Positions 47,276 to 48,867 of a DNA stretch of 64,000 nucleotides are shown one piece after another. Source of the stretch: Sulfurimonas sp. (lineage in GTDB: Bacteria; Campylobacterota; Campylobacteria; Campylobacterales; Sulfurimonadaceae); contig NZ_JAQTOD010000005.1 of NCBI RefSeq assembly GCF_028713515.1, forward strand, positions 36,300 through 100,299, given 5' to 3'. The notes under the pieces were generated by a model. The model was not told the DNA's origin. It saw nothing but the letters and a program-made list of their open reading frames with translations, and ran no database searches. The translations under genes and the position numbers were made by a program. Positions within the stretch are counted from its first letter, which is position 1. Each line of letters begins with the position of its first letter.

Positions 47276-47310
47276 CTTGATTGACATCCGCTCAACCCTT
47301 ATGATATAAT
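47276..47310 (+). promoter_or_regulatory. cbpA-hspR promoter overlapped by a HAIR-like HspR operator
   Basis: TTGACA (47281-47286) and TATAAT (47305-47310) are 18 bases apart. CTTGATT-N7-GCTCAAC at 47276-47296 matches the HAIR operator CTTGAGT-N7-ACTCAAG at 11 of 14 positions with exact spacing and covers the -35 box. Autorepression of cbpA-hspR by HspR, as in Helicobacter, is inferred. Confidence 0.7.
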
Positions 47311-47346: not shown

Positions 47347-48216
47347 ATGGCTAAATCACTTTACGAAACGCTTGAAATAAGCGATAATGCAACAGAAGCA
47401 GAGATTAAAAAAGCATATAGAAAATTAGCAAGAAAGTACCATCCTGATGTCAATAAAGAGAAGGGTGCAGAAGATAAATTTAAAGAGATAAATTCGGCAT
47501 ACGAAATTCTTAGCGATAAAAAGAAAAAAGCTCAGTATGATGCGCAGGGCGACAGTATGTTTGGAGGACAGAACTTCCATGATTTCTCTCGCTCATACGG
47601 TGGAGGCAACGATTTGGATGAGATACTAAGAAGTATGTTCTCTGGCGGTGGCGGATTTGGTGGCGGTGGCGGATTTGGCGGATATAGCAGTGGAGGTCGC
47701 CCGCAGCAACAGCCAGATTTAGATATTGAGACAAGCGTTGTGATACCTTTTAGTGTCGCCATCCTTGGAGGTTCTCACTCCGTTGCAGTTAATGGAGATA
47801 GATTTGATATTAAAATCCCAGCAGGTGTAAAAAGTGGCGAAAAAATGCGGGTAAAGGGAAAAGGACATGCTCAAAATGGAAGAGCAGGTGATCTGTTTCT
47901 AAAGATAAATGTAGCCGCAAATCCAGAGTATGTTAGAGAAGATGATGACCTCATCAAGATTTTCAACCTACCTCTTCATGCTGCACTGTTTGGTGAGAAA
48001 ATAGAGATAAAAACTCTTGATGGCGAGATAAAACTAAAAGTTCCACAAAATACTAAAAATGGACAGAGATTTCGCGTAAAAGAGAAAGGTGCTATGAATA
48101 GAAGCACAAAAGTTCGTGGAAATTTATATCTTGAAGCAAATATAATTCTGCCAAATATTGATGATTTGGATGAAAAGTTAGTTGAGATTATGAGAGAAAA
48201 ATTACCAAAAGAGTAA
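47347..48216 (+). CDS. cbpA: DnaJ-like co-chaperone CbpA
   Basis: This 289-residue J-domain protein stimulates DnaK. The J domain (1-70) includes KYHPDVNKE with the essential HPD. A Gly/Phe-rich linker (FGGGGGFGG) and two C-terminal substrate-binding domains follow. The Cys-rich zinc finger of DnaJ is missing, which defines CbpA. AGGAATTTAAA precedes the ATG. It is followed by hspR after a tandem structured repeat, the same gene order as the cbpA-hspR operon in Helicobacter. Confidence 0.95.
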   Translation: MAKSLYETLEISDNATEAEIKKAYRKLARKYHPDVNKEKGAEDKFKEINSAYEILSDKKKKAQYDAQGDSMFGGQNFHDFSRSYGGGNDLDEILRSMFSGGGGFGGGGGFGGYSSGGRPQQQPDLDIETSVVIPFSVAILGGSHSVAVNGDRFDIKIPAGVKSGEKMRVKGKGHAQNGRAGDLFLKINVAANPEYVREDDDLIKIFNLPLHAALFGEKIEIKTLDGEIKLKVPQNTKNGQRFRVKEKGAMNRSTKVRGNLYLEANIILPNIDDLDEKLVEIMREKLPKE

Positions 48217-48250
48217 CCATAAAAAAGAGAAAACTACTGCTTGGGTTTCT

Positions 48251-48473
48251 CTGCCTCGCAAGAGGCAGGCTTTAGTGCCATAGCGGCTAGCGTAGCAGGA
48301 GGGACTGGTTCCTCTTGCGTTTAAAATCAAATGAGGGGTTCCCTTCATTTTGTAAAACAAACTGCCTTGCAAGAGGCAGGCTTTAGTGCCATAGCGGCTA
48401 GCGTAGCACGAGGGACTGGTTCCTCTTGCGTTTAAAATCAAATGAGGGGTTCTCCTTCATTTTGTAAAACAAA
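48251..48473 (+). repeat. Tandem structured repeat, copies D1 and D2 (about 111 nt each)
   Basis: Two near-identical units start at 48251 and 48362. Each begins with CTGCCTC-GCAA-GAGGCAG (D2: CTGCCTT), a hairpin with a GNRA tetraloop, then GCTTTAGTGCC and the block GGGACTGGTTCCTCTTGCG. CGCAAGAGG from the first hairpin can also pair with CCTCTTGCG later in the unit, so two exclusive folds exist. The D1 to D2 change in the hairpin keeps a G-U pair. The ORF called on the minus strand here is an artefact of the repeat. Confidence 0.85.
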
Positions 48474-48489
48474 ATTAAGGGAGAATAAT

Positions 48490-48867
48490 ATGATTCACCA
48501 ATACGACGAACCAGTATATCTAATAAGTATAGTCGCAAAGATTTTAGATATCCATCCTCAAACACTTAGACAGTACGAGAGAGAAAACCTTCTCACGCCA
48601 ATGCGTTCAAGCGGAAAAATAAGGCTATATTCTCAAAAAGACATAGATAGAATAAAGTTGATTTTGAGATTAACTCGTGAGCTTGGTGTAAATTTGGCTG
48701 GTGTTGATATTATTCTTAGACTGAAAGTTAATGTTGATGAGATGGAACAAGATATTATCTCACTTAGGCAAGAAGTTTTAAAAGCCAAAAGTTCACACTC
48801 TGCGGTGTCCGATAAAGCGCTTGTGACTAAAAAAAGTATTTATGATATGGTAATTTTTGAAAAATAA
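48490..48867 (+). CDS. hspR: Heat-shock repressor HspR (MerR family)
   Basis: HspR represses heat-shock genes by binding HAIR sites with help from DnaK or chaperones. The ORF track starts earlier, but ATG at 48490 after AAGGGAGAATAAT begins MIHQYDEPVYLISIVAKIL. The MerR helix-turn-helix is ILDIHPQTLRQYERENLLTPMRSSGKIRLYSQKDIDRIKLI, read here in two parts. The C-terminal coiled region (EMEQDIISLRQEVLKAK) fits the dimer helix. The 125-residue length is typical. Confidence 0.92.
   Translation: MIHQYDEPVYLISIVAKILDIHPQTLRQYERENLLTPMRSSGKIRLYSQKDIDRIKLILRLTRELGVNLAGVDIILRLKVNVDEMEQDIISLRQEVLKAKSSHSAVSDKALVTKKSIYDMVIFEK

Follow-up and report, generated by a model that had tools for sequence, protein, structure and literature searches.

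Why do 273 nt separate cbpA from hspR in a Sulfurimonas heat-shock operon, and what does the DNA filling this gap do to the repressor gene? The gap lies in a stretch of 64,000 nt, referred to as the window, and carries two hairpin-bearing units in tandem. We assign a probability of about 0.7 to the joint reading that these units are two tandem copies of a dispersed, modular, hairpin-rich non-coding repeat of Campylobacterales, and that this selfish, BOX- or REP-like repeat inserted into a tight operon, was duplicated there and gave hspR a translation-lowering leader.

The cbpA-hspR operon and its intergenic repeat

All features given by window coordinates lie on the forward strand. The DnaJ-type co-chaperone gene cbpA (47347-48216; ORF with Pfam DnaJ and DnaJ_C) precedes the repeat and the MerR-type heat-shock repressor gene hspR (48490-48867; ORF from the ATG at 48490, Pfam MerR_1) follows it, which agrees with the heat-shock operon proposed in the first-pass annotation. 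Before cbpA, a promoter TTGACA-18-TATAAT with extended -10 was found (47281-47310; 12/12 consensus match). It is overlapped by a HAIR-like inverted repeat, CTTGATT-N7-GCTCAAC (47276-47296), for which the HAIR consensus was taken from PMC6102357; the pattern match spans 47276-47295, with 0.14 expected by chance. The cbpA-hspR-rarA operon of Helicobacter pylori is autoregulated by HspR (PMC6102357), and promoter and HAIR-like repeat would fit an HspR-autoregulated operon of this kind.

Repeat unit 1 (48251-48361, 111 nt) and unit 2 (48362-48473, 112 nt) gave covariance-model matches of 96.1 and 91.9 bits and are 98% identical over the first 91 nt and 97% over the whole unit; the tandem repeat reported earlier, with its hairpin and complementary stretch, was thus recovered. 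Unit 1 consists of hairpin 1 (48251-48268), a conserved core GCTTTAGTGCCATAGCGGCTAGCGTAGC (48269-48296), hairpin 2 (48295-48318) and a hairpin 3 module without Shine-Dalgarno (SD) sequence (48329-48361). In unit 2, hairpin 1 (48362-48379), core (48380-48407) and hairpin 2 (48406-48429) are followed by the start of a module, termed A-B-A', which as the last module of the repeat reaches the hspR SD sequence AAGGGAG (48477-48483), a few nucleotides past the end of the stretch described in the first-pass annotation. Hairpin 1 reads CTGCCTC-GCAA-GAGGCAG in unit 1 and starts with CTGCCTT in unit 2, where the T for C keeps a G-U pair, as had been noted. The tandem repeat far exceeds chance, judged by two occurrences of the 29-nt core in the window (0 expected), a folding z of -4.2 for unit 1 and its recurrence throughout the genus. 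The 34 nt between the cbpA stop codon and unit 1 (48217-48250) are not present in relatives and are unlike the family consensus; AAAGAG flanks the first part of this stretch on both sides.

Distribution and consensus of the repeat family

Three other places of the same genome hold further copies or pieces, namely the regions upstream of ychF and of an rpoZ-like gene and the gap between genes resembling nifS and nifU (names assigned by eye from translations). With a single unit as blastn query, 89 of 135 Sulfurimonas genomes gave a match, and a covariance model of the core with its two flanking hairpins recovered 116 of the 135 with at least 979 matches, the richest genomes carrying at least 35 copies each. 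In model R2, the core-hairpin pairs stand one column off; it served for detection and alignment, not for counts of core pairs. In an order-wide sample, matches occurred in 67 of 299 genomes and 18 of 81 genera. The exact 26-mer core, searched in one genome per species over 84,980 species, was present in 56 stretches, all named Campylobacterota (Sulfurimonas, Sulfuricurvum, Sulfurospirillum diekertiae, Campylobacterales and Helicobacteraceae; one MAG is labelled Helicobacter cetorum). No model of Rfam 15 matches the repeat and no description of the family was found in the openly accessible literature searched. Tandem copies exist in other genomes too, at spacings of 75, 77, 96 and 136 nt.

The family consensus consists of hairpin 1 (CTGCCTC-N4-GAGGCAR), the core GCTTTAGTGCCAYAGCGGCTAGCGTAG of about 27 nt, hairpin 2 and one of several tails; the A-B-A' module with its terminal SD sequence is optional and marks the long form. 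Of 109 copies, 94 have a hairpin 1 stem of 5 bp or more, and the stem occurs in 40 spellings (e.g., TGCCTC/GAGGCA, TGACAC/GTGTCA, TGCCGC/GCGGCA, ACCGAC/GTCGGT); the GNRA loop of the window copies is no feature of the family. Double changes were seen at 8 of the 13 pairs of the consensus fold, every one in hairpin 2. The core is read as non-coding because its variable positions show no preference for third codon positions and hairpin 1 varies in length (both by eye), and a short peptide from the core (frame FSAIAASVA, open here) was rejected. With many similar non-coding copies dispersed between genes, the family has the make-up of a small interspersed intergenic repeat.

Gain and spread of the repeat

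The 273-nt gap between cbpA and hspR is found only here; the 29 relatives compared have the ordinary gap of 0-16 nt without repeat. The 150 nt before ychF hold one copy here and none in 29 relatives, most of which have another upstream gene at this place. In the nifS-nifU gap, ten species carry the repeat in sense, four carry it inverted and two carry it with another upstream fold; the remaining fourteen lack it there, most of them having a short gap. Presence and absence thus alternate at orthologous sites among relatives, and the empty sites at cbpA-hspR, ychF and nifS-nifU, albeit in other, distant species, show that the repeat was gained at the cbpA-hspR site and that the family spreads. 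Unit boundaries are seen at tandem junctions and by comparison with distant empty sites, and the one nearly constant base is a T preceding CTG (105 of 111 copies). Among 118 copies, with flanking ORFs called mechanically, the orientation of the flanking genes was same/same in 49, opposite/opposite in 25, same/opposite in 15 and opposite/same in 12.

In the four species with the inverted core beside nifU (loci L199, L210, L212 and L222), the SD-proximal tail keeps its orientation, which suggests either an inversion between hairpins or an independent insertion.

No mobiliser emerged from the Y1 flanks, from Y1 presence against copy number or from strand bias. A single Y1 transposase gene is present in the genome, bordered by inverted ends of its own and not by the repeat. 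Y1 matches are lacking altogether in ten genomes that carry at least 15 copies, and mobilisation by the Y1 transposase is thus not supported. Y1-bearing genomes have slightly more copies (medians 7 vs 4, p = 0.04), with many exceptions. Lagging-strand insertion, as for a single-stranded DNA element derived from IS200/IS605, was rejected owing to absent strand bias (25:24 and 28:22, with the terminus assumed opposite dnaA). Phage or plasmid cargo was rejected as well: plasmids gave no match and three phage matches are at chance level. The single IMG/VR contig with the repeat reads as a bacterial fragment with NAD synthetase-like and aminotransferase-like genes (by eye).

In this contig (L130:8310-8325), the NAD synthetase-like gene upstream of the repeat appears to take its stop codon from the repeat's TTTAG. 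The Y1 gene of the genome (C1:584023, L132:1313-2264) encodes a 262-aa IS200-like transposase and lies between 38-nt inverted repeats, which are 92% complementary and contain TTACACCCCTGTGAATGAATCTCCACTTTT; a partial second copy of its 3' end is located upstream (about L132:220-320).

A module predicted to cover the Shine-Dalgarno sequence of hspR

The A-B-A' module with the SD sequence (48434-48486) was matched by model R3 with 64.3 bits (E 5e-13). It comprises strand A AAATGAGGGG (48440-48449), strand B TTCTCCTTCATTTTGT (48450-48465), a loop AAA and strand A' ACAAAATTAAGGGAGAA (48469-48485), which holds the hspR SD sequence. Two exclusive folds are predicted at 48440-48485, B pairing with either A or A'. 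This pair of exclusive folds lies next to the hspR start codon and outside the helix named in the earlier switch proposal.

The covariance model of the module matches 117 of the 135 Sulfurimonas genomes. Over 64 distinct sequences, helix B.A' is 93.1% paired, compared with 44-63% when the strands are slid, and shows double changes at 7 pairs in 36 cells; these counts do not represent independent events, given that B.A' was the helix to which the alignment was fitted and that many of the loci are related. Helix A.B is 91.2% paired with one double change: it appears to be kept, while proof by covariation is absent. In the copies before nifU, A.B takes a shifted form, as read from the alignments. 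Of the two helices, the one over the SD sequence thus shows compensatory change, and its competitor is paired with almost no double changes. Taken together, the alignments indicate that B.A', covering the downstream SD sequence and competing with A.B, is a conserved helix.

At all 67 distinct loci, a start codon follows AAGG in sense at a distance of 3-12 nt. The predicted unpaired probability of the SD sequence has a median of 0.26, compared with 0.58 when the upstream sequence is shuffled. Across the family, the energies calculated for the two helices at 25°C differ little (medians -10.4 and -11.1 kcal/mol), while B.A' is favoured in the hspR copy (-15.8 kcal/mol, compared with -11.1 kcal/mol for A.B). 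Relatives without the repeat have AGGG, AGGA or GGAG at the SD site; the SD sequence at repeat loci may be repeat-borne or the gene's own. Upstream of nifU, glmS, ilvC, hypB and luxS, the module is found in several species, and a kept function would fit this better than pure selfishness.

Proposed origin and effect of the hspR leader

In the preferred reading, the family spreads as selfish DNA. One copy would have entered the cbpA-hspR gap between the stop codon and the ribosome-binding site and then doubled in tandem, and it would persist because the insertion falls between these two elements. Once transcribed, the hairpins of the repeat may form a leader of hspR which uncouples its translation from that of cbpA, perhaps with mRNA processing at the hairpins. 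As B.A' would hide the SD sequence, translation of hspR should be lowered; A.B may form first during transcription and give a brief window for ribosome loading. We accordingly expect hspR translation to be lower and uncoupled, any effect of the repeat on hspR being a prediction from the folding model.

Alternative readings

The family could instead be a true cis-regulatory RNA, with core and hairpins 1 and 2 as sensor or protein-binding domain and A-B-A' as expression platform. Such a mobile RNA would give unrelated Campylobacterales genes, dozens per genome including the heat-shock repressor, the same two-state ribosome-binding site and a shared control read by the core. Conservation of the SD helix before many genes, and before the same genes in several species, keeps this reading in play. 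Its exclusive helices are near-balanced, the sequestering helix covaries, the module always stands in sense before a start codon and the core is strongly conserved across families of the order. However, core copies without the SD module occur in both orientations, often at gene 3' ends, four species have an inverted core next to nifU, and A-B-A' can be present where hairpin 1 and core are missing (L189). The downstream genes are unrelated to each other and A.B has almost no double changes, and we regard shared control of this kind as unlikely.

The repeat might also be an inert spacer with no net effect on hspR. Its position between stop codon and SD sequence breaks nothing, and many copies are located where no effect is apparent, e.g., behind converging genes. 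On the other hand, an SD hairpin as stable as that calculated for hspR normally lowers initiation, and the short coupling distance to cbpA is lost, which makes complete neutrality rather improbable. The harmless repeat insertion considered in the first-pass annotation nevertheless comes close to the evidence. Some effect on hspR likewise stays plausible, because the second pair of exclusive folds is present and its sequestering helix covaries.

An RNA thermometer, in which the SD hairpin melts on heating and HspR rises after heat shock, was rejected as very improbable. The repeat does precede a heat-shock repressor gene, with the SD sequence predicted to be sequestered, and the module also lies before dnaK in one relative (L026). 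However, most family members precede genes unrelated to heat, and the predicted pairing of the hspR SD sequence persists from 5 to 55°C, sequestration even rising with temperature in longer contexts. Since sequestration is predicted to win at all temperatures and the helix does not open in the heat-shock range, the hspR leader is probably no thermometer, and the temperature-dependent folding suggested earlier is not supported.

Least credible is the originally proposed exchange of hairpin 1 with a downstream pairing: although CGCAAGAGG (48257-48265) is complementary to CCTCTTGCG (48311-48319), 45 nt apart, over 9 bases in both units, local hairpins 1 and 2 are more stable than the cross fold by 5-10 kcal/mol throughout 10-60°C without crossover, and of 97 family copies only 5 have a contiguous run of at least 8 pairs, the two window units among them. 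Failing on energy and conservation, this cross pairing is read by us as a coincidence of the window copy.

Comparison with known systems

In translational riboswitches and RNA thermometers, a leader sequesters the SD sequence, one strand pairing with either an upstream partner or the SD sequence. Strand B of the window family is predicted to choose in the same manner, but here the module recurs upstream of dozens of genes with no relation to each other. BOX, RUP and SPRITE of Streptococcus pneumoniae are likewise small interspersed intergenic repeats (PMC3049150); BOX has a modular build with modules in tandem, forms a fold upon transcription and is reported to influence the expression of neighbouring genes (PMC3049150). 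The likeness is one of description, and the 3' module of the window family differs in ending at an SD-covering hairpin. REP/BIME palindromes and REPINs with RAYT transposases are also extragenic palindromes, many per genome and clustered or in tandem (PMC3733652, PMC3116915), but the unit of the window family has 75-136 nt with a long conserved core, compared with 20-40 nt for REP (PMC3733652, PMC3116915), and no link to a RAYT gene was found in the flanks of the genome's own Y1 gene or in copy-rich genomes. The MITE-like ERIC and Correia elements resemble the family as non-autonomous, hairpin-rich operon insertions able to change mRNA processing (PMC3049150). A strict MITE is marked by inverted termini and target duplication; the ends of the window family are seen through tandem junctions and by comparison with distant empty sites.

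An abundant, order-wide family without Rfam entry in environmentally important sulfur oxidisers would alter the annotation of intergenic regions in these bacteria. Its SD-covering module offers a natural experiment: because the nifU site is filled, inverted or empty depending on the species, an effect on translation is directly testable. The hspR copy is a lineage-specific insertion which may have reset the heat-shock repressor.

Related folds and other repeats in the genus

Many species carry another upstream fold, GCACTAGTGC-GAGGGCTTCCTGCCGAAGGAAACCAAGCGTTAGCGTAG, ahead of a hairpin 2 and tail of the same kind; this second class (GCACTAGTGC...CTGCCGAAGGAAACCAAGCGTTAGCGTAG; loci L163-L192) shares hairpin 2 and the SD module. 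A mini-hairpin similar to AGGTACCCCTTGAGGGTGT is nested inside loops of the repeat's own hairpins (L012, L029, L179 and perhaps L110). A separate palindromic repeat similar to GTTCCCATCGTCTTCGATGGGAAC is present in several loci of the genus (L015, L023, L040 and L132:155-180).
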